Shown piece after piece: positions 8,428 to 51,961 of a DNA stretch of 64,000 nucleotides (position 1 is its first letter; each line of letters starts with the position of its first letter). The notes beneath the pieces are model-generated. The model had not been told where the DNA came from. It saw nothing but the letters and a program-made list of their open reading frames with translations, and did no database searches. The translations under genes were made by a program, and so were the position numbers. Source of the DNA: Phlebopus portentosus (Eukaryota; Basidiomycota; Agaricomycetes; Boletales; Boletinellaceae); the NCBI GenBank assembly GCA_037892935.1, contig JAYXKI010000008.1, positions 1,426,001 through 1,490,000 on the forward strand. The letters run 5' to 3'.

Positions 8428-8428
8428 G

Positions 8429-27531: not shown

Positions 27532-28074
27532 GAACTAATTAGGGAAAATCCTGATCACGAGATGGCAATGTACGCCTCAATCCCGAGGCCCACCTCGCCG
27601 GTCAACTTCGGCGACGAAGATCCATCCGTCGCCCCACCGAACATCCCCCTCCACAAAATCGAGGTCTGGCTCGATGATAAATTCGAAGTAAAGGCTTTGC
27701 TCGACTCGGGGTCGACATTTATCGCCGTGCCAAAAGAGGTATGGAAGGACCTCGGCTCCCCGACGATAATGAGCCAAGCAATCACAGTAGAAACCGCCGA
27801 CAGACAAACCTCACACTTGGCAGGACTCATCCCTCGCGTCAGACTCACCATAGGCGCCTTCTCTATTGTTGTCTAAGTCCAGGTCGTCAAAAAGGCCCCC
27901 TTTCAGTTACTATTAGGCCGGCCATTTTTCGTACACACCAGGGCACAGGTCATAGACAAGGCCGACGGTGAACAGACGCTATACCTTACTCATCTCGATA
28001 CGAATGAAACCATGTCGATCCCGACGATTCAGCGCGGCACTGGGACAGAAAAACAGCGCCCCCCTAGACAATGA
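27532..28074 (+). pseudogene. Aspartic protease of element A
   Basis: It follows gag in the same frame. The active site is DSGS (near 27706), and the flap-to-C-terminal part includes LLGRPFF (near 27910), as in Ty3/gypsy proteases. A TAA at 27874 and the TGA after gag are the only breaks, both explicable as CAA-to-TAA and CGA-to-TGA. The frame ends with TGA at 28072-28074, which overlaps the pol ATG by the sequence ATGA. Confidence 0.85.
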
Positions 28075-31000: not shown

Positions 31001-33188
31001 GGGGGTCTTGTTTCGGGTGAGAGAAGATAGAGAAGCCTTTATACGATGACGGCGAACTATACGAACGCACGAACGGCTCTACTGCGAAGAGAGATCACCG
31101 ATCGACTGTACAGAACACGAAATGTCATATATTAGACTATAGAGACGAGAGAGTCCACTACGAACAAGTAGACTAGAGGTCGAGAGGCTTTGAGACGATG
31201 TGAGAACTGCAAGCTAAGCTCCCACTCAGCTCCGACTCAGCTGTCCCTCTACTACGAGAGTTGTGCTATATTTATACTAAACATCCAAGACTGAGCCTCC
31301 CCGCGGTCAGAGAACCTACGTCATAAAGAAAAGGGAATGCATATCGCTATCTACAAAGGAGAGGAGCGCATAGGAATGGTTTAAGGGACATATAGGTCAA
31401 AAGAAACAATACTAAGCATGTCTGGAATGAGAGCATAATGGATTAAAGGGGACGCATATAGAAAGGTCAGAATATGTGCGGAACCTTCGGAACCGGGTCT
31501 CTTTGAGCGGAACGAAGCGGAACTCAGGGAAACGACTCGGAAGGGCTCTGGCTAGCCTGACAAAGTAAGTCTGCGATGTTTAATAAAGGAGAGGGACTGA
31601 GGACGAGGTTGCAGGGTCAAATCTCTTTGTCTGGAATGCGGATCCGAGGTCCGGAGACTTGTGATCGACGCGTGCAAACTCGATGCCGTGATTCTCCCAT
31701 CTTGATGGCCGATCAAAGAACGGTGCACGTGCCATCTGGACTATGGCGTTCTTGCTAAGTCTACTCGTTCGAGCGAACCCAGTCGAAACCGAGCGAAACC
31801 AGTCGGAACACCGCGGAACTGGTCGTAATGACTCCGTACGTTCCCAAGCTTCAGACTTACTCTTCACCGCCCCATCCCGCCCCGCCGATCTTTCAGACGC
31901 CCAATTCAAACAGTTCGTATGCCGAGCCACTCATTTCTTCCTACAGCACGGCGAACTCTACAGAAAGAACGACAAAGGTCACGCCACACTCGCAATTCTG
32001 CCAGAACACCGAATTTCCATTATCAGAACTGCCCACGACGAACTCGGCCACAAAGGCTTCTTCTCTGTCAGAACAACGATCCAAGACCGATTCTGGTGGC
32101 CAGGAATGCATCAGGACATCAAATGGTATATCAAAACCTGCCACCAATGCCAAACGAGGCAGTTTACGAAAATATATACCACGCTGCAAAGCCCGACGCC
32201 CGCGCCGCTATTCTCCAGGGTGCATATAGACGTGATGTTAATGCCGCCCTCCGGCGGATTCAAGTATATCATTCAGGCCCGAGACTCGCTCACCGGATAC
32301 CCCGAATTCCGAATGCTGCACAAAGATAACACCGCCTCGATAGCACGCTTCGTTTTTGAAGATATTTTGTCAAGATGGGGACGAGTCGAGGAGATCGTAA
32401 CCGACAACGGCGCCTCATTCTCCAAGGACTTACCCCGCCTTCTCGCCAAATACAATGTCCAGCACATCCGAATCTCGCCGTACAACTCAAGAGCCAATGG
32501 AATCATTGAGCGGCGATACCGGGACCTTAGAGAAACCCTAATGAAGCTCGCCGACGCAAGCCCAGACAAGTGGTCCCAGCATATATACCATGCCATTTGG
32601 GCCGAACGAATCACGATCCAACGCCGCACAGGCTATAGCCCATACTTTATGGCCCACGGCGTTGAACCAGTACTCCCCTTCGACCTCGCCGAACAGACGT
32701 ACATCTTGCCGGCGGTCACCTCCAAGATGTCCGACGCACAACTCATCGCGGCGAGAGCAAGGGCACTCCAGAAATGACCCGAGGACCTCCAACGAGTCAA
32801 GGAATCTGTCATCCAGGGACGCTTCAAATCCATACAGGACTTCGAGAAAACCCACGCCGCAACAATTAAGGATTACAATTTCGCCCCTGGCTCACTTGTG
32901 CTGGTCAGGAACTCCCAGATAGAAAACAAGCTGAACAGGAAGACAAAGCCGAAATACCTAGGGCCCATGATTGTCGTGTGGTGAACCAAAGGAGGATCCT
33001 ACGTTCTCGCCGAAGCAAACGGCGCCATTTCAGCACTTCGTTACGCAGCATTCAGAGTTATCCCTTACCACGCACGCACTCGAATCATCGACTCAGTCGA
33101 AGACCTCACTCAGAAATCCACGCCGGAACTCGACAACCTAGCACAAGAGACCGTGGCGGATGACCTAGACGCCGAATCCAACTTATGA
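28071..33188 (+). pseudogene. pol of element A: reverse transcriptase, RNase H, integrase
   Basis: The first part (28071-30238) has RT with the YIDD catalytic box (near 29170), a tether, and RNase H with DSS (near 29690) and DASYIKG motifs. The second part (31867-33188) has the integrase HHCC finger (HDELGHKG ... CHQCQ), the core with HIDVM, TDNG and the later glutamate (IIERR), and a GPF/Y-like end (KPKYLGP). The solo LTR of family D splits the tether after RNase H; removal with one CCGC restores the frame. TGA at 32775 and another at about 32983 break the integrase end. Pol is in the -1 frame relative to gag-protease. No chromodomain is seen. Confidence 0.9.
30239..31866 (-). mobile_element. 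Solo LTR, family D, inside pol A
   Basis: This 1628-bp unit is the reverse complement of 56326-57967. It is flanked by CCGC on both sides (30235-30238 and 31867-31870). Its TATA box lies on the minus strand (31269-31276). Excision rejoins pol in frame. Confidence 0.92.
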
Positions 33189-33627: not shown

Positions 33628-34402
33628 CTATCCACGGTGTTCACCCTGGGCCTTTTCCTCCACCTCCCCACCCACACTCTCTCCCGCCAACGTCGACTCC
33701 ATCCCCTCCAGCTGCCGGTGGAGAGTGAGGACCTCCTGCTGCACCAGGAAGGTCACGTCCGACTCCAAGATATCGCACCGGTGGTGTGATACCCGGCACG
33801 CCTGGCACAGGAGCGCCGGCGGGCGCCTCGTGCACATCTCCCCACGCCCGATGCACTGCTCGCACCCCGGCGACACGAACTCAAGGAGGCGGCAGCTCTG
33901 ACCCCTGGGGAGCCGCCCGACCCTCTCGAACTCCCAACCCCCCTCCTCCCTCTGAATATTATAGTCAGAGAGTGTCAAGAACAAAATTCAAGACAGCACT
34001 CACCGCCCCGTCCCTTCTTCCTGTCGCCTCCTCTTTCGCCTTTCCTCCACCCGAGGCCGCTGCTCCCGGCGCTCTTGCTCGTTTCGCCGGCGGCTCGACC
34101 ACCGGCTCACGTACGTGCTTTGGAAGGGGAGGCACCTAGAAACGAAACATGTCAGTGAAGAATAAGATCCAGGACATAAAACACACATCGACATATACCT
34201 CCTTTCCACTCGACCTTTTCGCTCGCGTTGACCCCTCATCAGACTCAACCTCAAGAGTGATGGTCTTTCCTGTGACCGTCCCCGAGCGTCCCCCTCGCAT
34301 CACTCGACCACTCTCCCCCTTGAGCGTCTCGCTGGACGAACCCGCCATCTCAAGACCAGGGATCGATGACCCAGGAAGAGTAATCGTCTTTCCTGTCGCC
34401 GG

Positions 34403-34860
34403 TGTTAGGCGGACGGCTCAAGGACTGAGTCGAGGCAGGCCAACACAACAACAAACAAGCGTGAATGAGATAATCCCAAACACGTTGCTCAGGTCCAGAC
34501 AGCTAAGACGAGGCTTAAGTCCAGACCGTCGAACGCTATGTCAAAGTGAAGGTAAGTAGAATTCAATAAACTATTAATACAAGAGTAGATACCTATATCA
34601 AAGTGAAGGTAAGTAGAATAGAAAGACAAGGAACGAAAGAGTCAAACTATCTACTTATATAGACTTTGAGCGCGGGAAAGGTCTACTCTAATAGGAAGTC
34701 ACATGATAAGGAATGGGATGATTAGTGAGCGTGATAGAACATTGTGGAATGTTCCGGCAAAAGGATGAGTAAGCACATAAGAAAAATAAAAGAAAAGAAA
34801 AAGAATATTAAAATAAATGATGACGTCAGAAAAGAAAAGGAAAATGTTCGAGTCCTTACA
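34403..34860 (-). repeat. 3' LTR of element F
   Basis: It begins TGTTAGGCGG on the plus strand and ends CCTTACA. A TATATAAG box lies on the minus strand (34661-34654). It is preceded on the element strand by a run of purines at 34861-34873. Confidence 0.93.
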
Positions 34861-36719
34861 TCACCCCCCCTTCAAGGTTGGGTGTCCCGACCAACCACAT
34901 AAGCCTTCTGAGGACGTGAACTTGTACAGCGCTCGCAGGCTTTGTCGAGGTATCATTAACTTCCTTGGAGCTCCAGGATGTTTGCGGTAGAATTCTTGAA
35001 TTGACTCCTGCACATTATCCTTGACGTTGGATTCTGGCTGCCAAGTCGCTTCCTCATATCCAACCCACTTGACCAAGAATTGGAGCTTGCCTCGATGCAG
35101 ACGCGAGTCGAGTATTTCTTCAACCTCGTACTCTTCCTGCTCATCAATGATCACTGGCGGTGGTGGAGGTGGTTTCTTCTGCGATTCAAAGGACGGTTGG
35201 ATGGCTGGTTTGAGCAAGATCTCATTGAAAACTGGATGGACCTTCTTCCAGGTCTTCGGTAGTTTGAGTCTGTATGCGCTTGCGCCAACCTTTTCCACTA
35301 CCTCGAAGGGACCGAACCATTTATCATCCATCTTCTTCATCGGTCGGATCGTCTTGATATTTCGTCCATCTAAGAAGACTTTCTGCCCTGCTTCATAGGT
35401 AACGGACTTCCCAGCATGGCGGTCATAGAAATGCTTCATGTCTTTGTTTGCTTGGGTTAGGTTACCTTGAGCGAGTTCGTGCACCTCCTTGACATGCTTG
35501 GCAAATTCTTCTGCTGACAGGTTCGATGATGCCGTTCCAACCCCTGTGAAGTCTAAGGGGTGCATTCCCGTATTGACGAAGAAGGGAGATAGCTTCGTCG
35601 CTGAATGTTCACGGTTGTTGTATGCGAATTCTGCGAGAGCCAGCCAGTCCACCCAGTCCGACTGCCGATGGTTGACGTATAGCCGCAGGTATTGTTCTAG
35701 CTCCTGATTAACCCGCTCTGTCTGTCCGTCAGTTTGTGGGTGATACGCTGTCGATGGGTTGCCTTCAATGTGGAGGAGCTTGTACAACTCCTTCATCATC
35801 TTTGCATCGAATTGCACCCCTCGGTCATGAATGATCTTCCGTGGTAGTCCGTGTAATCGGAAGACGTGGTCTCTGTAGATCCTAGCCATGCCTTCCGCCT
35901 TTAACTTTGTCGTTGTTGGAATCGCATGGATTTGTTTGCTAAAGCGATCGACCACTACACAAATCGCATTGAACCCATTCGATTCTGGCAACTCTCCGAT
36001 TAGGTCGACTGTGACAATCTGCCATGGCGCCTCCGGCACCTCGTTAGGGTGCAAAACCTTTGTTCTCGTTGTCCTTAGAGCCTTCGTCCGCTGACAACGA
36101 TCACACCCCCGCACATACACCTGCACATCTGCACTCATCCTTGGCCACCAGTACCTGCGTGCTATCAGCTGGATCGTCTTTGTTGCTCCTGGATGTCCTG
36201 CCAGGGTCGAGTCGTGGTGTTCCTTCATGACGTCCTCTCTGATGCTCGCTGGTACATATAGTCGGCGGCCCTTTCTCCACATGTCCCCTCGCTTCTCGAC
36301 GTCCTTTGGTCTCACTCCCTCGTCCTCTTGTCTCTGCGCTTCCACGACGTTTTCAATGAGTACTTCTCTTGACGTCTGAACCATTCCTCTAACCAGCCAT
36401 TCCTTCTTGATGAAAGTCACGTTCTCATTATCGCGCTCACCCTTGTCATAATCCACCCGGCGTAACAACAGATCAGCTTTTCCCAACGTCTTTCCGGGTT
36501 TATGGACTAGCGTGAAATCGAACTCAGCTAAATCGAGTCGCCAACGAGCTTGTCGACGATTTAACTTCTGCGGCGATCGGAAGTACGTTAGATTTGCATG
36601 GTCTGTCCATACCTCAAAAGGTTGGTTAGCTCCCTGGAGATATTGTCGCCATTCCTTTAGGGCTTGAACAATGGCAAGCATTTCCTTGTCGTAAATCTCA
36701 TAGTTTCGCTCTGCCTCTA
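34861..36719 (-). pseudogene. C-terminal pol of element F: RNase H end, integrase, chromodomain
   Basis: Starting right after transposon G, this encodes the RNase H end (ERNYEIYDKEMLAIV), the integrase finger (HHDSTLAGHPG ... CDRCQ), the core with all three acidic residues (TVDLIGE, HDRGVQF, DGQTERVNQE), a GPF/Y segment (KWFGPFEVVEKVG) and a chromodomain near 35120-34990 (EEYEVEEILDSR, WVGYEEATWQP). The stop is TGA at 34863-34861. The catalytic residues are intact, so F was probably active before G split it. The upstream half is at 44529-46431. Confidence 0.93.
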
Positions 36720-36737
36720 CATCAGGAAAACAGTCCA
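36720..36737 (+). repeat. Left terminal inverted repeat of G
   Basis: CATCAGGAAAACAGTCCA. It matches the inverse of 44511-44528 with one A/T mismatch and is identical to the terminus of G' at 8411-8428. Confidence 0.88.
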
Positions 36738-37775
36738 AATTATCCACTGCTACCCATAGCTACCCATAGCTACTCATAGCTACTCACTACTATAGGCTGC
36801 TATATAGCAGCCTATAGTAGGTTAGTAGTCCATAGTGATTTATCGTGACCCCCCTACTATATAGAGGGCTGTAACAGTGTATAGATGCTATAGTTAATAT
36901 TTATTCATAGTACTAGAAAGAGATGAATAGTGCATAATATATAGCAACCCGTAGCAATTGATACAGATTTATAGTACTACTAGCGCATAGTGCATAGTGC
37001 CTTATAGTAATTAGTATGAGTTTATAGCTGATACTAGATGCTTATAGTTGATAGTTCTTATAGGTGATATATTGCCATAGCATATTAAAGATATAGATAG
37101 TCATATATTATCATAGATAGCCCTTATTAGAGACCACGAGCATATCGGAGAACATATTTAATTTTTATTAAATTTAAATATATTGATAGTATACTACTTA
37201 CAGACCCATACAAGCATGTAACTAATTACATGTACAGCTTACTACAGAATCTATGTGAGCTAGGCGTACACTCATATACATCTATACTAATATAGACCAA
37301 TGCTACTTGTCGGAGATAATAAATAGTCAAAAGTGTTAACACTAGACACTGTTGACAGGACAAAGGAACTTCCACTGGCTTCAAGGCCCAAACTGGTTAA
37401 CACAAGGTCAGAGTGCACTAGCGCCGCCCCAGCTAAGTGGCACAGGTTCAGCAGCGCATAGCACACCTCCAGCTGGCTGGCAAACAGCCACAGTATAATA
37501 GGTGCCGCCCTGGCTAAGTGCACAGGTTCAGCAGCACTCAACATACTGCCTCTACACCTGGGCTGCCCGCTGCGACAGGGACAGAGGTATCCAAGAACCA
37601 CAGACCTCCCAACAGCCAGAACAACAATTAAAAGAAAAGGTAATGAAGTGGCCTGAAGCCATTGCAATCTGCAAGGTGAGAGACGGTTCAGAATGTGGAT
37701 GCGTACGCATCCACAATTCGGTGGCTCAACATAAGGAGCCAATTACCTTACAGGTCCATTCAGCACCAGCCTGGA
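36738..37775. other. A/T-rich subterminal region of G
   Basis: It holds TATAG/CTATA variants to about 37290, then short direct repeats and a 20-bp perfect palindrome (37695-37714). It mirrors 7380-8410. The overlapping opposite-strand ORFs of 151 and 94 codons are not convincing genes. Confidence 0.5.
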
Positions 37776-37861
37776 GACGTGCATGAGTGCATTCCATGTC
37801 CCACACAGCATGGCCAATGCACTGCGCGAGTTCATGCAGTAATCTTGCAGTGCCGTACCTA
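37776..37861 (+). pseudogene. Duplicated fragment of the Argonaute L1 exon
   Basis: These 86 bp match 38399-38484 with several substitutions, including the ALREFMQ run, followed by an in-frame TAA. It sits immediately before the Argonaute N domain in both G and G'. It marks an internal duplication made before the two copies separated. Confidence 0.8.
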
Positions 37862-40800
37862 GGAGGCCGTCGACTTGCGCAGGCACATTGTTGCCAAATT
37901 TGCTCAGTCTCAGGAACTATCGCAGAACGTGCAGGGCATCGTGCATGATGGCGTCGGTCGCCTCGTCGCAAAGCTGCCGCTGCCGAAAAACTTTCAGGTC
38001 ACGGTGATGGCACCGGCCCCGTCGTCCAAGGAACTGGGCGCACGCACGCACGATATCCCGTACTTTGTCACACTTGTCGGACCTAATCCTCTTAAATCAG
38101 CGGACCTCGCTGGGTAAGGCTTGCCCTTCGACCGTAATCTAATAGTGATACTGACTTCTTTCTTCAACAGGTACCTACGTGGTGAGAATCCCGACTACGA
38201 TCCTGCACCTATCGTCTCGGCCTTCAACCTGATCGTTATGGCGCATGCCGCTCACACTGGTTTTCGCGCACTCACCAAGGATGCATACTATTTCGACCCC
38301 AATGCGGATACGGGCGTGCCTACTCGCCCTAGCATCAAGGTCGTCAACGGCTTCTTCGCTTCCGTCCGTCCAGTTCACAAGTCCCTCATGGTCAGCGTGA
38401 ATACATGCATGAGCACGTTCCACGTCCCGCGAAGCATGGCCGATGCGCTGCGCGAGTTCATGCAGCAATCTCGCGGTGCCGTACCTCAGAAATTCTTCGG
38501 TAATATGAGGGTAGTTACAAGTTACCTCGGGTACGATAGGCGCAACACCGTGAAGGCAATTGGACCCGGTACGGCGAGACGGACAAAGATCCAGAGTGAA
38601 AAATTCGGCAATATCACAGTGGAGGGAATATTTCCAGAAAAGTAAGTCATCCGTGGATCGAATAGGAATCGTGCTGACTATCGCACAGAGTTCCACATCA
38701 CACTCCGCCACGCAGATGACCTGCCCGTGGTGAATGTCGGGAAAGAGGGCAAGGACGTTTTCGTACCAGCCGAGCTGTGCAAGATTGTACCAGGGACCCT
38801 TTTCGCGGGTGAGCTGAAGTCTGGGGAGAGCGCAGCCCTGTGTGCTGCAAACAACAAGATGCCAGCCGGTCACGCACAGACAATCACTATCAAGGGTCTC
38901 CGTCTCCTAGGCTTCGAGGAGGGCACACCTCCGATGGTCAGCTTCGGAATCAAAATCTCGACAAATATGGCTGTTGTCGCGGCTCGCGTTCTCCCCGCAC
39001 CGTTGGTGATTTATCCTTCGGGCCATGCACAAATTGTCAATGGATCTTGGACGGCGCGTGGCATTCAGTTCGCGAGGCTTGCAGAGCTTAAACGCCTTGC
39101 AGTTGTGGTCTTAAAGGATGGGAATATAGAAGAGTCCGACAGCTCACTCGAGGTGCAGGTGCGCGAGGCGGTGAAGGCTCTGATCAGAAAATGTCACGCA
39201 CGTGGAATGAACGTCAACTCGGACTTCATCATGCAGGTCCTGCAGCTCCGCCGTCCGAGTCGAGAGGATCCATACCACGATGAGGATGTGGACAAAGTAT
39301 CAAGGTTGTTCGAATCGCTGCCAGGCAGGCCCCAAATGGTTCTTGCCCTCATGTCAAACGAAAATAAGCACATCTATGCGGGACTCCACCGGTACTTTGA
39401 CGTCGGCCAGGACTTCCAGTCCGTGATTGGCCTCATCGAGAACATGCTCGACAAGGAGGGCCACGATCAGTATCTGCCGAATCTCGCGCTCAAGGTTAAC
39501 ACAAAGCTCGGTGGGGTCAACCATCGGCTGGAGCCTGCTTCTCTGAAACGGCTGGCAAACACGATGGTGGTCGGGTTCGATGTGATTAAGCCGGGTGGGA
39601 ATGTGGTCAAGGGCGCGCCTGGTATTGCAGCAGTCGTGGTGTCGTGCGACGTGAACTTCACCCCAGTGCCATGCAAGTGTCTCCCTTCAGGGAGTAAAAG
39701 AAGAGGTGAGCTCTCGTTTTTATGCTATTATGCAGGCGCCTGATGCAGCTATTCATAGACAGTTGAAAACTTACGTGGTATGATTCTGGAATGCTTAAAG
39801 AACTACCGTCAAAGCATGGGCTCGTTCCCTGAACGGATCCTTATATTCCGTGCCAGTATTTCAGACGGCCAGCACGCGCGGGTAATGGCCACCGAGATCA
39901 AGCAGCTGAACGAAGCATTTGGTGAACTGAAGAAATACAAACCGAAGTTGACTTACATCACTTGTAGCAAAGGTCATCAGACTCGGTTCTACCCCAGCCG
40001 CAGACGATCCTAAGTTCGAAATGCCCCTATACAGTTTCTTGAGTTGCTGTACGAAAACACTGGAACTTGCATATTCCCGAGGCTGCCCGTCAAACAAGTG
40101 TCGATGATGTTGACGACCGTCAGTGGTGGTCGCTAGTTCGGCAAACGTTTGCATGGCAGCCCCATTGACTCTGAGCTTCGAAGTCTTCGTGATCGGACTG
40201 TGGCAGCCTGGACTTCACTGCGGAAACGGGATATAAGCTGGAAGGCTAGGTCGCTGGCGATATGTGGTGGAGGTCTGTCATTTCGTTCGTGCTGGTCATG
40301 GATGAGGCTGAGACAACGGTATACACACATCTCCAATTCGTTAGGTGATTCAGCCTTTCCTCTTTGATTGTCACAGAACTCCTTTAGAGACAGCAGAGCT
40401 TTTGCAGGCGTAAAGATCCAGACAACAACTTGACGGCAAGGTTGAGGACTCACAGTTCATAAGCTGCTGGATCTCCAAAGCTCGATCAAACGTAGGTACG
40501 TCATACATGAGATAGAGTGAAAGGATATGAAAACGTGTACATCGTTCGTGAGACTCGATAGCTATTGGTCCGTTGTCTTGCTGAATCGTGAAACCGTTGC
40601 GTACAGCTCGAGAGCAATCTCTGGCAAATGCCCGAGTCTCCGTGAAGTCACTGAAGTTCATCAGACGCATCCTGCACATCACGACGACTGACAAGACCTC
40701 GTGCTCTATGGTGGGAACGAGCATAGACCAGGGCATGATGAGCATTTACGACTACAAGTTCTCTTTGCAGGCTCATGCAGGCATGCAAGGTATCGCTCGT

Positions 40801-40977
40801 GCAGTTCACTACACCGTCCTCCATAATGACAAGAAGTTATCTCCCAACACCCTACAGCAAGGCATCAATGAAATCTCATACCTGTGGTCAGCATCAACGA
40901 AGGGTGTGAGCCTGAAACTGCCAGCCTACTGGCAAGTCAAGCATGTGCAAGGTGATGTCGCTGGTCGAGGGCAGTAA
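37862..40977 (+). pseudogene. Argonaute gene carried by transposon G (5'-truncated, PIWI active site altered)
   Basis: Domains in order: N domain (37870-38380, intron near 38116-38170), L1 linker, PAZ region starting FHITLRHADDLPVVNVG (38690 on), L2/MID (39100-39500), PIWI (39540-40977). Short introns with GT-AG ends are at 38642-38690 and 39707-39759. An extra G at about 38624 shifts the frame, a small indel near 39660 shifts it again, and about 600 bp after HQTRFYPS do not fit Argonaute. In PIWI the first aspartate remains (GFDVIKPGG), the second is alanine (FRASISDGQ for YRDGVSEGQ), and the final His/Asp position reads PAYWQVK. Slicing is therefore unlikely even for an intact version. The family loads small RNAs for gene silencing. 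Confidence 0.88.
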
Positions 40978-41637
40978 GGAGGTGAGGATGGGGAAGGAGG
41001 GATGTGACTTGTGTGAGTTGCGAGTTGCAAAGTCAACTTTGTCACGTGCAACAAAAGGGTAAGACCGAAAAAAAAAGACAAGATTGATGCTCCCCATGTT
41101 CACAAGTCCTAATGATAACAAACAAATCTTGATAAAATTGAACCTAAATTTATATCATTATAGCACTTTCTAAAGCTGCCTGATGTAAACAAAGCAAGCT
41201 CAGAAGGTCAGCATAACCAGAAAGTACTGTACTATATTTAAGGTGTTATTTAACTCTATCATGTGATTGTGGGAAAGTCTTCAAAAACTCGGATGCGTAC
41301 GCATCTGTTGCTCTTACTCTTAGGAGGTGTGTATTTGGGTAGGTCATGTAACCCATGACTACACTAGCTTTGTACATCATCTACACGAGATCTGTATTAA
41401 ATTGCAAATGTATAACCAGCACTGGTTTAGCACGGACCGTCTAGATGAAATAGGTTGTACATACATATAGATATGCATATATGACCTACATCTCTATGTG
41501 TAGGCCTGCATATATTTACTCTCTGCTTTGTTAACAGGCTCTGCTGCCTCAACAGTTAGAAATTTTGTTTTCCGCTTTCAGACCAATTTATAATTATATT
41601 TGATTAGAAATTATCAAAATACATGCAAGCTTAGCAG
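40978..41637. other. Non-coding spacer in transposon G
   Basis: It is A/T-rich and contains a 15-bp version of the palindromic motif (41291-41305). No gene is seen. Confidence 0.5.
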
Positions 41638-43430
41638 ATGGTGGCACCGTACACAACAGTCTCATCTGGGTTGATAGACTTGCATGGCTCCTTGCTGTTG
41701 AAGAAGTCAGGCATGAACTTGACAATTCAGGGTATACAGGTGGAACCATTGACGAGGATGATCTTGTGTACATTGGAATTGTCTATCTTGGAGTCCCGGA
41801 TAATCTTCTCAACAGGCTCAAGCGTGGAATGGAAGAGATCCTGGCACAGCTCCTTGAATCATTGTCGGCATACGTCAAGAAGATCTCTGACTTCTTCATT
41901 GGGACAGTCATATTATGCTTGATAAATACAGTCATGACACTGCCAGTGGTCTCGATACTGAGTGACAGAGGAGTGACATTGAGCAAGAAGGGGTCTTGGG
42001 TCTTCTCTGAGGTGTCGCCCTTGAGGATAGCAGCCAACAATCTTGTTTGCTTAGAGCAAAATGATCTGCCTGGGGACCCACACTATTTGACTGAGTTTGG
42101 CCCCAGTCTCCTTGCTCTGGGGAATGCCACACAGAGATCAGAGACAATAACACAAAGTGAAAGCGATACAACATACTGCATGTTTATTCATCACTATAGA
42201 AGCCGGCATTGTACAGAGGAGTAACAGAAAGATTGAGACGAAAGCCTGCATAAAATTGATCAGAGTTCAGACATGAATATATAGGTTGGGTATGCACTCA
42301 AATAGGGCACTAGTCAGACCTGGAGACACACCATAGACATCTTGTGCAATGATAGCTGTCAGTTGAAGATGATATAACCATATTGATACTGAAGAAAGAC
42401 GTCCATATGCTTATTGTACCAAAGATCTATATGCTTTTCGGTATCTTGAATCACATATTGCACTTGAGGGTATTCTCTTGATCCATTCTGCACGAGCTCT
42501 TATAAGTACGCGATATTGTACGGAGTCACTGTCAAACAATTTTAAATTACACATCAACCAAGATGCTCTTCCTACTAACCTCTTTCTTGGTACGTAAGAG
42601 GCATGATGATGCTCTTCAGTGCAGCAACTTCATCCAGTTCCAGATTTGGGTCTCCGGTGATGACAGTATGTGCCAAAAAATCAATACATTTCTCTATCAA
42701 GTTACTATGTAGACATCCGCGACAGCCTCATCTGAGTTGCCAGACCTGCATGGCGCCTTGCTGTTGAAGGAGTCAGAAAAGAGCTTGACAATATAGAGGA
42801 TATGGGTAGAACCTCCGACAAGGACCATCTCGTGTACATTGGACTTATCAACCTTGGAGTCCCAGAGAACCTTCTCAACAGGCTCAAGCATAGACTGGAA
42901 GAGATCTTGGCATAACTCCTCGAATTGTGCATGGGTGATTGAGATATAAAAGTTGATACCCTCATAGAGTGAATCAATTCCAATGGTCATCTGTGCTGCT
43001 GATGACAGTGTATGCTTTGCATGCTTGCAAGCAGTACGGAGTCAGTAAAGAGCACAAGGGTTCAATGAAAGATCTAAGAAAATCAGTGTCAATACCATGA
43101 TCATACGCTATCGGAATGACTTAAATTACATACCCTTCTTGTTCTTGCACTTGAACTCCTGAATAAAGTGGTTTACAAGGTGATTGTCAAAGTTCTCATC
43201 ACCCAAGTGACTATTGCTGACAGTCGCCTTGACTTTGAAGATACCCTCCTCAATGGTCAAGAGTGATATATTAAAGGTACCTCCACCAAGGTCAAAAATG
43301 AGGACATTGCACTTGCCTTAGAGCTTCTTGTCAAGACCATATATGATAGCAGCCACTGTGGGTTCATTGATGAGTTGGAAGAAGTTGAGGCTAGAGATAA
43401 CACTGGTGTCGCCTGACATTGCGAGTTGTT
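41638..43430 (-). pseudogene. Hsp70 fragments carried by transposon G, rearranged
   Basis: Reading leftward from 43430: the ATPase-domain segment NEPTVAAI...YGLDKKL and [10 protein letters not shown], then, after an intron-like gap, [43 protein letters not shown] (43010-42700). A second block at 42060-41860 encodes GDTSEKTQD ... [10 protein letters not shown] ... KKSEIF.TYADN, which in Hsp70 comes after the VGGST region. It is followed at 41860-41640 by another decayed copy of the LCQDLF...VNGST region. Order and repetition differ from a normal gene, with frameshifts throughout. It is a captured, shuffled fragment of a cytosolic Hsp70 gene and cannot encode a chaperone. Confidence 0.85.
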
Positions 43431-44510
43431 AAAGTAAGCAGGAATAGTGATGACAGCCTCAGTGACAGTGCTGTAAAACAGTCATGAATGAGGAGGATAA
43501 AGCAGGGATGGAGATGATTTGTAGGTGCTGAGGGTGAAAAGAGTGGCATGACAGTGGTGGCAAGAGACAAAGAGGACAACATGTCAAAATGAATCTAAGC
43601 CCGTCAAATACTGGCACTGGCCCATGTAGATCTATGTAGATTTACATAGTTCTATTATGCAAATCTAGTCCAGTTCTTGTATATCAACTCTCAAAACCTA
43701 ATCAAACACCATGTCAGCTAGACAAAACTATACAGACATTTATGTTAGGTGATCTACACAGAAATGCATATATTTGTGTACCTAACGTACCTTATTCTAC
43801 ACAAATTTTCTGTATGATGTAAGACAGATTTTTGTGTAGATTTCCTTATCTTGGGTACATTCAGCTACACAGGCATGTGTTAAGGATCTCCAATATGCAG
43901 TGATTGATTGCTATTCATAACTATGTACTAATATTGATATAGAATATCATCTATATGCATTTATATATTACTATATATTACTAGTCATATATTGACTATG
44001 TATTACTAATCTCTATCCAGTAATATAGACAGTTTACCACTATAAACAACTATATACTTCTTTAAACTATGGACTATAACTATTTATTAGGATCTATACA
44101 GAGATATCAGACAATATACTACTATTGATTACTATTTATATCTATGTAGTATATGTTACTATAGGATATCATCTATATGCATCTATATATTACTATATTA
44201 CTATATATAACTAATCATATATTGACTATATATTACTAACCTCTATTGCTATCTAAATACTGTTATGAATTGCTCACCACTATAAACAGCTATATACTTC
44301 TTTGAACTATTACCTATAACTGTCTACCAGGCCCTATACAGAGGTATCAAACTATGTGATACTATTAATTGCTATTCATATCTATATACTATGCATTACT
44401 ATAGAATACTATCTATATGTATCTATATATTACTATATATTACTATAGTATACTATGCACTACTATGAACTACTATGGTATTATAACTCACTATCCATTA
44501 ATAACTCAAA
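43431..44510. other. Right A/T-rich subterminal region of G
   Basis: From about 43900 it is built of imperfect tandem repeats of roughly 220-250 bp containing ATCTATATGCAT and ACTATATATTACT (for example about 43945 and 44168, then 44410). No gene is seen. Confidence 0.55.
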
Positions 44511-44528
44511 TGGACTGATTTCCTGATG
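44511..44528 (-). repeat. Right terminal inverted repeat of G
   Basis: The reverse complement is CATCAGGAAATCAGTCCA, one mismatch from the left terminus. It is followed by TA and the rest of pol F. Confidence 0.88.
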
Positions 44529-46431
44529 TAGGAATGTTGACGACCGATAAGCGATCACCTTCCATTTACCATCTTGTTTCTGGAGAAGGACTCCACCAGT
44601 CGCAAAGTCCGACGCATCTGCTTCTACACGGAAAGGGTCCTCGTTGTTGGGTATCGCTAACACGGGAGGACTACTCAAACGACGCTTCAATTCTTCAAAC
44701 GCTGCCTGTTCATCTTCGCCCCACTTCCATTCCACCTTACCCGTCAGTGTAGTCAAGGGTTTGACGACTGAACTGTAATCCTTAACGAAACGTCGCAACC
44801 AATTCCCTAGTCCCAGGAATTGTTGCAGTTCGTGGACGTTCCTTGGAACTGGCCAGTCCTGTACTGCCGCTGTCTTCTTGGGATCCATTCGAACTTCGCC
44901 ATTGCCAATAATGTGCCCGAGGTACTTGACTGTATCAACTTCGAACTCGCACTTCTGCGGCTTTAGGAAAAGTCCATTTTGGCGAAGGATCTCAAAGACT
45001 CGTTTGGTGCATCTGCAATGTTCTTCTAGATTATTCGAGAAGATGAGAATGTCATCGAGGTAAATGATGACGATACCCTCATGAATTAGCTCCCGAAAGA
45101 TGTCATTCATAAAGCCTTGGAACGTCGCTGGCGCATTACACAAGCCGAAGAACATGACTGTGGGTTCGAATAAGCCTAGATTTGTCCGGAACGCTGCCTT
45201 CCACTCGTCTCCCTCGCGAATCCGGATGTTGTAGTATCCCCAACGAACATCGAGCTTCGTGATGTACCTTGCATCCTTAACCTTGTCGATGAGCTCATTT
45301 ATCAGTGGCAATGGGTATTTGTTCTTGACCGTTCCTTCATTGAGCTTTCGATAGTCTTGGATTGCTCGTAAGCTCCCATCCTCTTTCTTGATAAAGAAGA
45401 ATGGTGACGCCATTGGAGACTTCGACTGTCGGATACGTCCTGACGCTAGGTTTTCCTCAATGAACTCTCTCATCGCTTCTTGTTCTTTTGGCGATAATGG
45501 GTAAACCTTGCAGTCACTGGGTTTGAAATCCGGTTTCAGGTCAATAGCGTGGTCCCACGTTCGGTGGTTTGGTAAGCGTTCGAACGATTCCTCACTAAAG
45601 ACGTTGGCGTATTCCTCCAGGTAAGGTGGCCATTTTGCTGCTTCCTTCATCCGCACATTCCTCACAAACTCTTCATCTATCTCTTCGCTCGACAGTGGCG
45701 ACTCACATTCATCAGGGCAACGGGTGAACTTAACTGTTCCTAACCTCCAATCAATTTCAGGATTATGCTTCATCAACCAGTCATGTCCAAGGAAGATGTT
45801 GCTTGATGCTAAGGATGTCACGGCCAGTCGAATCTCTTCCTCGTGTTTCCCAAAGAACATTTGTACGACTACGTATTCCTTGATCAATCCAGCCTCGTTG
45901 CTTGTTCCGTCAGCATTGAAGACTGGTCTAGGCCGAATGTACCTTTGGGTGGGGAAACCATACCGTTTGACAAAACCTTCGTCGATGCATGAGCCCGTGC
46001 ACCCTGAGTCGATCAGTGCATGAGCATCAATGAAGTTTTCCTCTTCGAGTAGGGGGTTCGACAAGTCTACTTCGTCATCACCTGCTACCTTTGGGTGTAC
46101 GATGCTAACGAAGGCGTCTAACTCCTTTCCTCCCGCCCGTCGCACGAACTGATCTGCGTCCACAATGCCCTCGCGCCATACCTCAGCCGCGCGTCTGCCT
46201 ACTACATCCCACACTGCTTCAGTGACGTTCGCCTGAGCAACAACGTTCTCGCGGTAAGGTGCTTCCGCCACAACCTCATTTTTTATAGCGGTTTGATTCT
46301 GCTCTTCCTCTCTCAATTCGCCTGCTTGCGCATCTGTTCTTCTGACAAATAAACCTTCATAGACTTCGAAGTCATCGTTGTCATCTTCAGATTCATCTGG
46401 CAGTACGTCGGTAAGGATCTTTCAAAGGATG
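44529..46431 (-). pseudogene. N-terminal pol of element F: protease, reverse transcriptase, RNase H start
   Basis: It has an aspartic protease with DSGCTGS (near 46010), and an RT with the FFIKKEDGSLR, LDVRWGYYNI and YLDDILIFS (near 45070) motifs. The RNase H start VEADASDFATGG (near 44620) runs to YRSSTFL, where transposon G is inserted; the other half resumes at 36717. Upstream the frame is open back into the gag end except for a TGA at 46434-46432, consistent with CGA. Relative to gag, this frame is -1 and overlaps the gag stop, suggesting a -1 frameshift for Gag-Pol synthesis. Confidence 0.93.
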
Positions 46432-46537
46432 AAACCGTCACTGATATTCGCATCTTGATATTGTACAACAGGACGATTATATTTTAACGAGTCCAACGAA
46501 AAGAGACCTTTAGGAGACCGACCAGTCGTTCCGACGT

Positions 46538-47983
46538 CTACGCCTGGTCTTCTAGAAAACCCTCACCATCCACTAACTCTTCCAGCTCAGTGGGCACTGC
46601 TCGGACCTCGACCTCTTCGAAGGAGGATTCCTTCGCTTGACCGAGTTCTTCGAGGAGCGCTTCTCTGTCTTCTGGAACAAAGGCTGCAATGATGGCACGT
46701 ATCGCTTCCCGGCCTCGCGGGCATTCCCTGATGTAGTGGCCCACCTGACCACACTTGTAACAAGCACGTGTACGACGCGCCTGGTTCATCATCACGTCCA
46801 TTGGCTGTCCTAAGCCTCCATACGTCACTTCTGTTGCGTCACAACGATCTTGGGCAGGGGGCACAAAGGGACAAGCCGCTTGTTGAGGCGGCACCGGTCG
46901 TCGCAGTGGTGGTACTGGAGCCGGCTTCGTCATAGTCGAGTTTGTCGCCTTCTGCCGATGTTCGGCCATCAGATCCCTGATTTGGCGTTCGACCCTGTCG
47001 ACTTTGACGGCAGCCTTCTTGAACTCTTCGTACGACGTCGGTTCATTAGGCAATCTCATAACGCCTTCGACAACCTTGGGGTTTAGTGCCCTCTTCAGGC
47101 GACTCATCAACCATTCGTCATGCGCTTCCGTCGCTAGACCAGCGTCCACTCGACAGATGTCGAACTTGTTGAAGAACTCATCGGCATTGAGGTCTCCTTG
47201 GTACATCGCGTCAAGTCGTTCGAAAGCTTTCTGAGACCTGGCGGGGTCGTCGAACGAAGTGTCCAGCTTCTTTAAGAAGGCGTCCCAGGCGTCCGTGAAC
47301 GTCAAGTTGCCATCTGCATCGACTGCTCCACTGGTGTAACTCTCCGCCCAGTGAGCCGCAGCACCACTCTTCATGTACAACAGGGCGAACATAATCTTAC
47401 TCTTGTTCGTCCTGAACTCTGACTCAGATGCGTAGATGTAGAGGCGCAGTTCTCGCTTGAAGTCCACATAATCATGTTCGCCATCAAAGTCTCTTGGTTT
47501 GGCGACGTGGACCTTCTTCGACACCTTTGATCCTTGGTTCGCACCTTCGCCTGCTGCTTGGAGCGCTAGTGCGACCGCCGTTGCGAGATCAGTCATCGCT
47601 TCCTTTGACAATGACATCTCGTGTTCTTCTTCTTCTTCTTCGTCTTCTTCACTCGGTATGAGCGGCGCTGGTTCTCGGAACTTTCCAAATGCCGGAGAAG
47701 GCTCGACAGTGGGGGCCAACGCTTGAGTGGTCGAACCCGATGGTTCTGGTAAGGGGGCCGTTGGTTGCGTCGGAGTAGGAGGTGAGGGCTCGTCTACGTC
47801 GCCTTCTTGTTTCACTCTCCAGTGGATGGACCTTCCTTCCCTCTGGGAGTACCACCTCTTGGCAGTCTCGTCCCACCAGGCGCCGAAGACTTGGTTTCCT
47901 GCTTTGACGATATAATGTCCTCGCGAGGCGCTCCACCTAGAGTTCGCAGGGAGGGCCGCTCGTTGCTCGTCAGTTAGCTCCAC
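46538..47983 (-). CDS. gag of element F (intact, 481 residues)
   Basis: This is an ATG-to-stop ORF. It has a Trp-rich N-terminal segment, a Pro-rich linker, an acidic stretch, a Ty3-type capsid domain at residues about 165-330 (HDYVDFKRELRLYI ... AAAHWAESY ... FDDPARSQKAF), and a CCHC zinc knuckle CYKCGQVGHYIREC (near 46770-46730), then an acidic tail. It packages element RNA. The leader at 47984-48399 separates it from the 5' LTR. Together with the 1 percent LTR divergence, the intact frame argues for recent activity. Confidence 0.93.
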   Translation of the reverse strand: MELTDEQRAALPANSRWSASRGHYIVKAGNQVFGAWWDETAKRWYSQREGRSIHWRVKQEGDVDEPSPPTPTQPTAPLPEPSGSTTQALAPTVEPSPAFGKFREPAPLIPSEEDEEEEEEHEMSLSKEAMTDLATAVALALQAAGEGANQGSKVSKKVHVAKPRDFDGEHDYVDFKRELRLYIYASESEFRTNKSKIMFALLYMKSGAAAHWAESYTSGAVDADGNLTFTDAWDAFLKKLDTSFDDPARSQKAFERLDAMYQGDLNADEFFNKFDICRVDAGLATEAHDEWLMSRLKRALNPKVVEGVMRLPNEPTSYEEFKKAAVKVDRVERQIRDLMAEHRQKATNSTMTKPAPVPPLRRPVPPQQAACPFVPPAQDRCDATEVTYGGLGQPMDVMMNQARRTRACYKCGQVGHYIRECPRGREAIRAIIAAFVPEDREALLEELGQAKESSFEEVEVRAVPTELEELVDGEGFLEDQA

Positions 47984-48399
47984 CTTGATAGGCTGGGGGT
48001 GGAACGGGGATCGGGATGCTGTTCGGGCGGGACCGACTTCGGATAACCGGCTTGTCTTTGAAGTTGATGACTAAACGAAAGGCTCCGAGGTAGATAATGA
48101 AGGAGATACTTGTCGACAACTGAACTCTATGCGTTACCCACGAGAAGGTTTGATGGGAGTTCCAGAGAAGGGTGATTCGGAGTGCCACGGTGATGTGATT
48201 GGTTGATACTTCGGGTACTATCGGGTCATGTTGGAGTCAATCGGACTTCGACGGGCAAGATAGGGGTTTGTTGTCTGCACGGTAGGAACCGGGTTTCGTT
48301 CGATGTCGTTCTTCGAAGATATACTTCAGGGGACACGTCACAGGCGAGCGCTCGACAACAACGGAATCGGGCGTGAGCCAGAGGTAGGTCTTTCTATTA

Positions 48400-48857
48400 T
48401 GTTAGGCGGACGGCTCAAGGACTGAGTCGAGGCAGGCTAACACAACAACAAACAAGCGTGAATGAGATAATCCCAAACACGTTGCTCAGGTCCAGACAGC
48501 TAAGACGAGGCTTAAGTCCAGACCGTCGAACGCTATGTCAAAGTGAAGGTAAGTAGAATTCAATAAACTATTAATACAAGAGTAGATACCTATGTCAAAG
48601 TGAAGGTAAGTAGAATAGAAAGACAAGGAACGAAAGAGTCAAACTATCTACTTATATAGACTTTGAGCACGGGAAAGGTCTACTCTAATAGGAAGTCACA
48701 TGATAAGGAATGGGATGATTAGTGAGCGTGATAGAACATTGTGGAATGTTCCAGCAAAAGGATGAGTAAGCGCATAAGAAAAATAAAAGAAAAGAAAAAG
48801 AATATTAAAATAAATGATGACGTCAGAAAAGAAAAGGAAAATGTTCGAGTCCTTACA
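48400..48857 (-). repeat. 5' LTR of element F
   Basis: This 458-bp LTR is nearly identical to 34403-34860. Five substitutions were counted, all transitions. It is followed on the plus side by the target duplication GCCGG and the rest of the antisense gene of element A. Confidence 0.93.
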
Positions 48858-50317
48858 GCCGGCCTGGCCGCGGGACACGCCTGCACCTTCGCTTTGGTGC
48901 TTGTTTTAGGCGCCACGACCTAAGAAGATATTTTCAGAGACAGTAAAAAACAAAATTCAAGACAACGACTTACCAGGTTCCCTGCCTCATCGCGCCCTGA
49001 GGACCTACAGAAGGCCTCGACGACCTCCGGGCCCCCAACTCGCAGGGTGGCGAGCGTCTTGAGGAAGGAGGCTTTTGCCTCCTCGGCCACCTTCGCCGCG
49101 CTCCACTTTGCCTCCTCACGAGCCTCCTCCTCCCGGCGCTTGGCCAGCCTCTCCGCGACGCGTCGGAGGCGATTCACCTCTGACTGGGTGGCCTTGTCCA
49201 ATGCCTCGGCGGCGTCCTTAGCCTTCCTGGCAGCCATCCGCACCACCGTCGCCCGGTTCACCAACCACCTCCCCGCGCAATAATATTCGGGCTTTTCAGC
49301 CCTCGCGTCGTCGGATAGCGTGGGGAAGCGCTCCCCAAGCCCCTTCTGAAAAAGTAAACCAGATCGTCAGCTCACACGGTTATTATCAAGGGAATGCAAA
49401 TTTACCAAGAGCCCATCGAGCTCATCAGCAGCGGGCCCCTCATCGTTTCAGGCCCGCTCAATCCACCCCCTCACCACCGTAATAGCCGCCCATACGGCCG
49501 CGTCCAGTCCTTCCCCCCCCTCCCCCCCCTCCCCACCCTCCTCCTCCGTCTCCCCCTGCGACTCCGGCGGGACCTCTTGCCCGCTGGGGGCCTGCGACAT
49601 CCCGCCCACGGCAGGAGCCCCCGTCGCCGCCCCGGCGTCCACCTCCATCTGGTCGGAGGGAGCCTCCGACCCCTCCCTGCTGTTGTTGCTGCTGCTGCTG
49701 ACACTGAGAATCGTCGGCGCCATGGTGGAAAGAGAAAAAGAGAAACGGGGAACTCAGACACGAGTCCCCATCGTCTATATCCTCGCCACACCCAATTCAA
49801 ACTCCGATTTCAGCCCTCCATACACGCGACCTCCCCGCCCCCTTTTTACCAATCAATTACCAAATCCTCCCCACTGCTCTGCCGCAATCTCCACTCAAAT
49901 TCCACAAACCCCTCGGCGACTCTCCCCCCTCCAAAACTCGCCGGAACAATCCGCCGAACCCCACCACAACACAGCCCCAACCTTCCAGACCCCTGCCAAG
50001 CCGGCCGATACAACATTCTACGCCAATCCCCCCCACCGATCATCAAATATCGCCGCACACCCTACCCTAGCCGTACCTACACCCATTAACGAATCCTCAA
50101 CCTATATGCTACGACCTACACCACCCTAGTTAACTACCAGGCGTCCCCGACTGGTTCTCGGACCGCCAAAAGCCCACCGAATTGTATTTCCGATGTACCA
50201 CTACCCCTGACTACAGGCCATTGTATCCATATCTGGTACCAGATCAAGATCATGATATGACGACACCTTCCATGATTAACCATTTAAACTTTACTTCCGA
50301 ACTCCCTTCTAAATCGA

Positions 50318-50830
50318 AGCTCGTCCCTCTGATGCCCCGCCTATATGAAACTCCTTCGCCCAGGCCCCCTTCTATTCAAAGATCACTTCGCCCCACGCCG
50401 CTACAGGCCACCATACCCGAACTACCGGCGAACCAGCCTCGCCGCGAGCCTCCCATCCCACTTACTCGTCCCGCTGACGACCCGCCTATACGAAATCCCT
50501 TCGCCCAGGCCCCCTTCTATTCGAAGATCGCTTCGCCCCACACCGCTACAGGTCACCATACCCGAACTACCGGCGAACCAGCCTCGCCGCGAGCCTCCCA
50601 TCCCACTTACTCGTCCTGCCGACGACCCGCCTATACGAAATCCCTTCGCCCAGGCCCCCTTCTAATCAAAAGATCGCTTCGCCCCACGCCGCTACAGGCC
50701 ACCATACCCGAACTACCGGCGAACCAGCCTCGCTGCTAGACACCCAACCCAATTACTCGTCACGCCGACAATCCGCCTACACAAAACACCTTCGCCTAGG
50801 CCCCCCCCTTCCATTAGAACACTACTTCGG
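50318..50830. repeat. Tandem repeat, period about 145 bp, roughly 3.4 copies
   Basis: The unit containing CTTCGCCCCACGCCGCTACA starts at 50386, 50531 and 50677. A decayed fourth partial copy covers the CCGCCTACACAAAA segment near 50776. Copies differ at a few positions. It lies upstream of the sense accessory gene and could act as a promoter array. Confidence 0.85.
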
Positions 50831-50928
50831 CCTTCGCCTATATTGGCCTCTACACTATTATACTGGCAACATCACCTCGCCAAAAGCCGTCATACTTTCC
50901 GGCCAACCCTGAAAACACTCGCCGAAAA

Positions 50929-50936
50929 TATATAAA
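50929..50936 (+). promoter_or_regulatory. TATA box for the sense accessory gene of element A
   Basis: TATATAAA lies about 78 bp upstream of the ATG at 51014. It supports transcription of this gene independently of the LTR. Confidence 0.5.
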
Positions 50937-51013
50937 GCGGCCGGCGACCTACTCGCCGCCCCCAAAAAACATCTACCCTACAGATTACGAATACCATCGG
51001 CGCCCCTTACAAC

Positions 51014-51961
51014 ATGCCCCAGCTGATTCCCAGCCTCGCCGAAGCATTCCCATTCGCACCGGCGACACCACTACTCCAAGTCCCGCACCCAGTCCAATTC
51101 CCCCGCCATGCCCAACACCTCTTAGATTTCAACTTCGCCCAATTAATCACACTTCCCGGACACCCCATGCTCCTTTACCCATGGCACCCTGATTACACAG
51201 CTATACCAAATATTCTTATCGCCGCCCTTTGCAGTTTTCATCACCCCTGCCCCGACATGGCGACTCTAATCTTCCTGCTGTACATTTGGGCCTCGCCGGA
51301 CGCCCAGCAACTCCTCTGTCAAGACCCACGCCTCTCCGGCGGAAACTGGGGATCATTTTGCGACCTCCTCGCCGATGCGTTTCCTGCAGCGATGCCATTC
51401 CCCGCCAGACACGTCCCCACGATGTTTCAGATCATCCCCGAACTCTTCACCAGACACCATCTGACACCTGCCAACAAAGCGACACTCGTTTACCGCATCC
51501 GAGAAACGCTCCGCATCGGCAGCGCCCTCACTACTATCCCCATAATTCTCAGCGTGCCTCTCGGCAATGGCGTACTACCCAATGCCCCCCTCGCCATCCT
51601 CAGAGAAGGGCCTATTGCACTCGAAAACACCGTCATTTACTCCGACGCCACCTCAGAACTATCCCACAATGCCATCATCCAAGTCTTACGCCTCTTCGAC
51701 GAGCGCGGCGACGATGATATACGCGACTGCGCCGCCAACGTCATCGCCATTATACTCCAAGCACAACAGTATTCGCTCTCAGCAATCGCAGCCGCCCAGG
51801 ACATCGAAGAGCACCTCGCCGAGCTTCGGGAATCCATTGAACATCACTCATACCTCAACAACGTACCTCAACAAGATGCGGCGGACAGAGCCAACCCTCC
51901 ATTGCACACCGCCGCACCAATTCACGATCCGCCGATGATTGATCTCACAACCGAAGACTAA
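51014..51961 (+). CDS. Sense accessory protein of element A (315 residues, unknown family)
   Basis: This is an intact ORF between the divergent intergenic region and the 3' LTR. It looks mostly alpha-helical, with a hydrophobic region (residues 60-100), a leucine/isoleucine-rich centre and an acidic helix at residues 250-285. The C-terminus ends IDLTTED, the usual shape of a SUMO-interacting motif (hydrophobic core with acidic flank). There is no signal peptide, zinc finger or enzyme motif that I recognise. It is intact although gag and pol of the same element carry stops, which hints at later selection or simply fewer CpG-type targets. The function is unknown. Confidence 0.6.
   Translation: MPQLIPSLAEAFPFAPATPLLQVPHPVQFPRHAQHLLDFNFAQLITLPGHPMLLYPWHPDYTAIPNILIAALCSFHHPCPDMATLIFLLYIWASPDAQQLLCQDPRLSGGNWGSFCDLLADAFPAAMPFPARHVPTMFQIIPELFTRHHLTPANKATLVYRIRETLRIGSALTTIPIILSVPLGNGVLPNAPLAILREGPIALENTVIYSDATSELSHNAIIQVLRLFDERGDDDIRDCAANVIAIILQAQQYSLSAIAAAQDIEEHLAELRESIEHHSYLNNVPQQDAADRANPPLHTAAPIHDPPMIDLTTED

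Follow-up and report, generated by a model that had tools for sequence, protein, structure and literature searches.

A five-exon antisense gene with a Zn2Cys6-spaced cysteine cluster in a Ty3-type retrotransposon of Phlebopus portentosus

Reverse transcription normally erases introns from retroelement genes, and the question raised by the locus described here is how a gene of five exons has been kept in an abundant element of this kind. The window, by which we mean the whole stretch of 64,000 nucleotides that was analysed, comes from the basidiomycete Phlebopus portentosus (Boletales; assembly GCA_037892935.1, contig JAYXKI010000008.1, positions 1,426,001 to 1,490,000 of the forward strand). 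It holds element A, a gypsy/Ty3-type retrotransposon with long terminal repeats (LTRs) of about 1.84 kb, and, between the pol gene and the 3' LTR of this element, a gene on the opposite strand whose last exon encodes six cysteines with the spacing of a Zn(II)2Cys6 cluster. An earlier note, made from the letters of the window alone, had described this antisense gene and had proposed that its introns are protected by its orientation.

Structure and copies of the antisense gene

Reading of the window copy and alignment with other copies gave a minus-strand gene of five exons and four introns (60, 54, 63 and 52 bp in the reference copy), all of which are GT-AG and in phase 0. Its exon 3 is cut by a second retrotransposon, element F, and its parts in the window, from the 5' end of the gene, are the following.

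49406-49723, minus strand: exon 1; encodes the acidic N-terminus from an ATG in CCACCATGG context, interrupted in the window copy by one in-frame TGA
49346-49405, minus strand: intron 1; 60 bp, GT-AG, phase 0
48974-49345, minus strand: exon 2; charged, Ala/Glu/Arg-rich
48920-48973, minus strand: intron 2; 54 bp, GT-AG, phase 0
48858-48919, minus strand: 5' part of exon 3; cut off from the 3' part by element F
34199-34402, minus strand: 3' part of exon 3; 34398-34402 is one copy of the target repeat of F (coding join 34397-34199)
34241-34273, minus strand: ubiquitin-like 33-bp stretch (TGKTITLEVES) inside exon 3
34136-34198, minus strand: intron 3; 63 bp, GT-AG, phase 0
34004-34135, minus strand: exon 4; basic patch resembling a nuclear localisation signal (NLS)
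33952-34003, minus strand: intron 4; 52 bp, GT-AG, phase 0
33628-33951, minus strand: exon 5; Zn cluster, C-terminal helix and stop codon
33775-33864, minus strand: six-cysteine cluster CX2CX6CX8CX2CX6C, within exon 5

The introns of 52-63 bp, their GT-AG ends and their phase, all put forward in the earlier note, were borne out by these coordinates and by the aligned copies, and the single TGA that it had seen in the spliced frame lies in exon 1. As had been claimed, the frame also spans the insertion of F once one copy of its target repeat GCCGG, found at 34398-34402 and at 48858-48862, is removed. The window copy is thus broken twice, by the nonsense codon in exon 1 and by the insertion of F, and the case for the antisense gene therefore rests on the other genomic copies.

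The genome (38.4 Mb in 23 contigs) contains the antisense gene at 33 places according to a DNA search in which all 33 candidates were scored, and a protein search with exon 5 likewise gave 33. At 28 of the 32 places besides the window the two halves of the gene adjoin, sharing only about the target repeat. Twenty-seven copies were aligned, the truncated or disrupted ones (L034, L036, L037, L039 and L040) having been left out beforehand. All four introns keep GT...AG in 26 of the 27, and two intron donors are changed in L038, the most diverged copy (89% identity); the length of intron 2 varies in four copies. No intron-less copy occurs among these 27 full-length rows, which all keep four intron intervals. 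The intact frame is present elsewhere in the genome, six of the 27 copies being open from the ATG to the expected stop, and the length is not a multiple of three for exon 1 in 12 copies and for exon 5 in seven. By motif reading, the gene has a Kozak-like start (CCACCATGG), a CT-rich leader, a TATA-like box and AATAAA-like sites 3' of its stop.

The gene belongs to element A, and not to the window only, because a reverse transcriptase (RT) match lies on the opposite strand at a near-fixed distance, 2,092-2,105 bp beyond the gene match, at 28 of the 33 places. Within 6 kb and in opposite orientation, RT was found at 30 of the gene places, ORF3 (a sense open reading frame between the antisense gene and the 3' LTR) at 29, and both at 27. 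The linkage was also read from the other side, with 36 of 41 RT rows (five at 68-70% identity omitted; the RT list scored 40 of 83 candidates) and 35 of 36 ORF3 rows (one 63-bp match omitted): the antisense gene is present within 20 kb on the expected side for 33 of the 36 near-identical RT matches compared, and is missing there for three of the 35 ORF3 places. Its location between pol and the 3' LTR, antisense to gag-pol, in most family copies compared is that of the additional antisense frames of plant elements termed aORF-3R. The observation of a five-exon antisense gene with a Zn2Cys6-spaced cluster in element A is thus confirmed.

What is new here is that a spliced antisense gene with the same cluster occurs in a second, distant family. 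This family, A', is a related Ty3-type family whose RT is 52-57% identical to that of A, and its antisense gene has the same position, the stop lying about 450 bp beyond the pol stop in L097-L099, where the pol frame has 866 codons, and about 440 bp beyond it in A. The cluster-bearing frame was found in four of the five A' loci read and is without internal stop in nine of 16 A' copies; its cluster has the form CX2CX6CX7CX2CX6C, and after it come a stretch rich in lysine and arginine and, by prediction, long helices. The first visible donor for the end of A' exon 2, GTACTT, was rejected, since it breaks the frame that other donors keep.

The predicted protein and its relatives

An uninterrupted copy of the A gene encodes 476 residues. 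The N-terminus is acidic and the middle charged; a net-positive stretch (KR..KRAR), the cluster (residues 399-428) and a C-terminal helix follow. The nuclear-type basic patch that had been predicted is indeed encoded in exon 4 (..KRVREP..PPAKRARAPG..), and the predicted Zn(II)2Cys6 spacing of the six cysteines also held. A pattern of CX2CX6CX5-12CX2CX6-8C is matched by the A protein, by the A' protein and by a predicted protein of Sanghuangporus weigelae (P0003), and was found in none of 200,000 shuffles of each of the three (the uninterrupted copy in the case of A). The six cysteines are unchanged in 26 of 26 A copies, which is weak evidence alone, as 79 of the 108 exon-5 codons are likewise unchanged; they are also invariant, together with one glycine and one proline of the cluster, in the 10 A and A' rows compared.

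Among named proteins, those of Sanghuangporus (order Hymenochaetales) are closest. P0003 (475 aa; S. weigelae record ACEPAI_7296) is a full-length homologue, which is 47% identical end to end, keeps the six cysteines and aligns across all four junctions without any insert of the size of an intron. Gene models of S. vaninii and S. sanghuang match in part; the S. vaninii model and one of the two for S. sanghuang have different ends and lack the cluster. Searches with the Zn region of S. weigelae and with a two-row alignment gave no relatives outside Sanghuangporus, using a tool that needs shared 5-residue words; the former search missed even the S. sanghuang relatives, and absence elsewhere is thus not shown. 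In the P. portentosus genome the S. weigelae protein matched, on a reading of the list, only at or beside A gene places, and no host parent was seen.

Structure prediction with AlphaFold gave, for the A' protein, helices at 14-19 and 32-37, one after each CXXC, with pLDDT there of about 55-70, and low confidence for A exon 5. When the A' model was compared by Foldseek with 350,542 PDB chains, three matches with E <= 10 were obtained, none of them significant (best E 2.5, Pho7): two Pho7-DNA complexes and one CBF3 chain, all of which we take to be Zn2Cys6 proteins. VIA-align gave no match. A sequence search against solved structures led only to weak matches with chains that are not related (LAG1 homologues, malic enzyme and antibody chains; E from 0.07 upwards), and these were set aside.

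Exon 3 also contains an 11-residue piece, TGKTITLEVES, that is identical to ubiquitin. Its 33 nucleotides are a single sequence in 22 of 26 copies and differ from a host polyubiquitin repeat (L089) at two of 33 positions; a partial second copy (TGKTITL) lies upstream in the gene, and similar pieces occur in S. weigelae (TLTGKTITL) and S. vaninii (VKTLTGK). The stretch looks like an old captured fragment, the antisense of which would be carried by the genomic RNA of A. A ubiquitin domain was rejected, as polyubiquitin matches span no more than 7-16% of the protein and trace to this short piece of exon 3.

A putative regulator, its rivals and its introns

Our preferred reading, which we hold to be probable though far from secure, is that the product of the antisense gene would be a trans-acting nuclear DNA-binding regulator of element expression. 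Judged by its motifs, the gene probably has an internal promoter, divergent from ORF3 around a set of 145-bp tandem repeats, and its transcript would be spliced as modelled. The protein would most likely enter the nucleus and bind DNA, because it has an acidic N-terminus, a charged middle, an NLS-like patch, a Zn2Cys6-like cluster that may bind zinc and a C-terminal helix fit for dimerisation. It may then act in trans on promoters of the element, in the LTR and/or in the repeat-bearing region. When the 145-bp repeats were scanned for CGG/CCG half-sites, no convincing palindrome was found (three CCG-6-CGG and two CGG-13-CCG; chance level not computed), and a scan for bacterial promoters and terminators was set aside as meaningless for a fungus.

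Three points weigh on the other side, the first of which concerns selection. Replacement and silent counts were compared with a context-matched neutral expectation over alignment columns, and not by a codon model on a tree, with 26 A gene copies (the 27 less L038), RT from 28 of 41 places plus the window, ORF3 from 20 of 36 plus the window, and 16 of the 40 listed A' places. Variation among A copies is mainly at CpG, affecting 194 of 340 CpG positions in exons versus 73 of 1,091 others and seven of 14 CpG positions in introns versus six of 215 others, and such CpG-dominated variation is typical of copies that decay once inserted. That introns vary less than exons was not taken as a signal of selection, as it is largely due to CpG content. 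Over all sites, the ratio omega was 0.80 for the A gene (p = 0.038), 0.56 for RT, 0.68 for ORF3 and 0.78 for the A' gene (p = 0.008). At non-CpG sites it was 0.22 for RT (p = 1e-9), 0.44 for ORF3 (p = 0.0035) and 0.54 for the A' gene (p = 3e-4), but 0.70 for the A gene (41 replacement and 27 silent changes, p = 0.096); at shared non-CpG sites it was 0.12, 0.32 and 0.29 (p = 2e-4 for A'), and 1.18 for the A gene (12 replacement, 4 silent). Frame-shifted controls gave the expected 1.10-1.33 at singleton sites and at sites shared by two or more copies, and 0.81 and 2.88 at sites shared by four or more (12 sites each). ORF3 is therefore under purifying selection, as is the A' antisense gene at non-CpG sites, whereas the A gene within this genome is not clearly below neutrality, with omega about 0.7-0.8, and shows little or no detectable constraint in the latest burst. 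The earlier note had named a ratio near 1 as telling against its claim; for A the values went half of the way there, and A' departed from it at non-CpG sites. Low constraint on A is what would be expected of a trans-acting product supplied by other copies, or of a gene losing its use, and the frame that is open between species argues for constraint on the A gene over a longer term.

The second point is that the cluster, in spite of its Zn2Cys6 spacing, is not a member of Pfam Zn_clus (PF00172) by score. The match to this profile, which the earlier note had proposed to look for, stayed below the curated cut-off of 21 bits: the whole protein scored 7.8, exon 5 alone 12.6 and the cluster of 36 residues 16. 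In the best-aligned piece the second CX2CX6C half pairs with positions 3-14 of the 39 in the profile, as though the two halves had changed places. Zn_clus had no match for P0003 or P0024, and by eye none of the 27 genomic Zn_clus places listed at E <= 0.001 (all above the cut-off) falls among the 33 A or the 40 listed A' places. The protein is therefore like Gal4-type factors (PF00172) in its CX2CX6CX8CX2CX6C spacing, basic patch and following helix, and unlike them in its score, in the apparent swap of the halves and in the location of the cluster near the C-terminus.

The third point, which concerns novelty, is that additional antisense genes have precedents, both in Ty3 elements of plants and, among fungi, in the element Boty. 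As described in passages of PMC7264820 and PMC11963269, the plant aORF-3R include gene23 of Grande and those of RIRE2, Retand (with a TRP28 domain) and PvRetro13; like the A gene, they are encoded on the strand opposite to pol, in the stretch from there to the 3' LTR, and are kept in most copies, a nuclear or DNA-binding protein has been suggested for them, and Retand has tandem repeats in the same region. The domains named in those passages are TRP28 or SMC, in contrast to the basidiomycete host, four introns and six-cysteine cluster found here, and the words "zinc" and "intron" do not occur in the main texts of the two papers. For fungi, Boty, an LTR element of Botrytis cinerea, is described in passages of PMC7264820 and PMC8365987 as having an additional antisense gene, brtn (Zhao 2011, as cited there). 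A fungal antisense gene is therefore not new in itself, as the earlier note had thought a multi-intron zinc-cluster version to be; the zinc-cluster version still appears so. A full-text literature search, judged by titles and the starts of abstracts and with most subscription journals outside its coverage, gave, among the papers listed, no zinc-cluster antisense gene of a fungal retroelement, and the passages of PMC5408684 on rotifer LTR elements with extra ORFs contain no antisense gene.

Among the alternatives to a transcriptional regulator, the one that survives best, although we consider it unlikely, is a nuclear protein that aids the nuclear entry of the element's complex or its choice of insertion site, the cluster and basic patch serving as a chromatin tether. 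The NLS-like patch and the C-terminal helix would suit such a role, a plant review (passages of PMC7264820) connects similar proteins with the passage of the pre-integration complex into the nucleus, and a scan of two pieces of A pol, which ended at 32777, short of the C-terminus, gave no chromodomain, whereas element F has one. However, a separate antisense gene is an odd route of expression for a factor needed in cis with gag-pol, and the spacing of the cluster is that of DNA-binding regulators. It is more improbable still that the functional product is an antisense RNA, acting as double-stranded or small RNAs that restrain the element or as a long non-coding RNA, with the frame being a relic. 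From the layout, convergent pol and antisense transcripts could overlap, the A frame is weakly constrained, and transposon-derived antisense long non-coding RNAs are reported in Blumeria in the part of PMC10648671 consulted; the 475-aa S. weigelae protein with its six cysteines and the purifying selection on A' point, however, to constraint at the protein level. The weakest is a captured host zinc-cluster gene that is now a neutral passenger in A, for which speak omega of 0.7-0.8, the 21 of 27 copies that are not fully open and the ubiquitin-like piece as a sign that host sequence can enter the gene, but which fits poorly with 47% identity between species over the full length, a similar gene at the same position in A' and S. 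weigelae matches read only at or beside A gene places, with no host parent seen in this genome.

The antisense orientation of the gene also bears on the question of its introns. These would survive because the genomic RNA that is reverse transcribed is the complement of the spliced strand, so that the spliceosome is blind to the introns there. As this argument predicts, the sense frames compared, which are both pieces of A pol, ORF3 and the A' pol frame of 866 codons (gag being outside the comparison), are long and intron-less, and with no intron-less antisense gene among the 27 rows the protection proposed in the earlier note is supported. Its interpretation as a whole is partly supported.

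Element A, its neighbours and the wider meaning

The remaining features of the element and its surroundings in the window are as follows.

20287-22126, plus strand: 5' LTR of element A; TGTAG...CTACA, 4-bp flank GCGG at 20283-20286; from self-BLAST
28068-33188, plus strand: pol of element A; RT/RNase H 28068-30341, integrase 31692-32777 and on, last stop 33186-33188
34403-48857, minus strand: element F, a Ty3 element with a chromodomain, nested within exon 3 of the antisense gene; LTRs 98.9% identical
49724-51013, no strand: region of 1290 bp that separates the antisense gene from ORF3, with divergent starts on its two sides
50320-50805, no strand: 145-bp tandem repeats, 3.3 units, between the two divergent genes
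51014-51961, plus strand: ORF3, sense; 315 aa, intron-less frame
52086-53916, plus strand: 3' LTR of element A; flank GCGG at 53917-53920, purine-rich tract immediately before

The LTRs of element A are 94.5% identical by self-BLAST and have TG..CA ends, and RT-RNase H lies ahead of integrase, the domain order of Ty3-type elements. Pfam found RT_RNaseH, Integrase_H2C2 and rve above their cut-offs in pol, and RVT_1 just below (28.8 bits against 29.6). The pol gene is interrupted at about 30236-31872 by a reverse-oriented solo LTR of A', 96.6% identical to L097, and carries stops besides this interruption; a stretch related to the same solo LTR is also found at 56322-57967. ORF3 gave no match in a Pfam search. 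Between it and the antisense gene there are a TATA-like ATATAGA at 49780 (minus strand) and TATATA at 50929 (plus strand), and the copy number of the repeats seems to be variable, as the distance from gene to ORF3 differs by about one 145-bp unit in some A copies. Immediately to the right of element A are the arms of a large inverted repeat (53917-56325 versus 59459-61868, 91.7%). Two long inverted matches of 98-99%, between 3578-8428 in the left part of the window and 36720-40575 nested within F, suggest a common recent insertion.

HBZ of HTLV-1 is spliced and regulatory, a bZIP protein driven from the 3' LTR, and no sequence relation between it and the A protein is claimed. Like the A protein as predicted, it is a nuclear protein from an antisense gene of a retroelement (passages of PMC11963269). 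It is conceivable, with a chance that we would put somewhat short of even, that in a basidiomycete Ty3 lineage a spliced antisense gene of the element itself encodes a Zn2Cys6-like transcription factor, which was retained during the divergence of RT to about 52-57% identity and acts in trans on promoters of the elements as a built-in regulator, a fungal counterpart of HBZ, with the antisense strand as a refuge for introns. With two families that have spliced antisense genes, sequence and RNA-seq can put the idea of such a refuge to the test. Should the protein bind DNA, it would be a transcription factor carried by these elements that may act on host promoters and on related elements.

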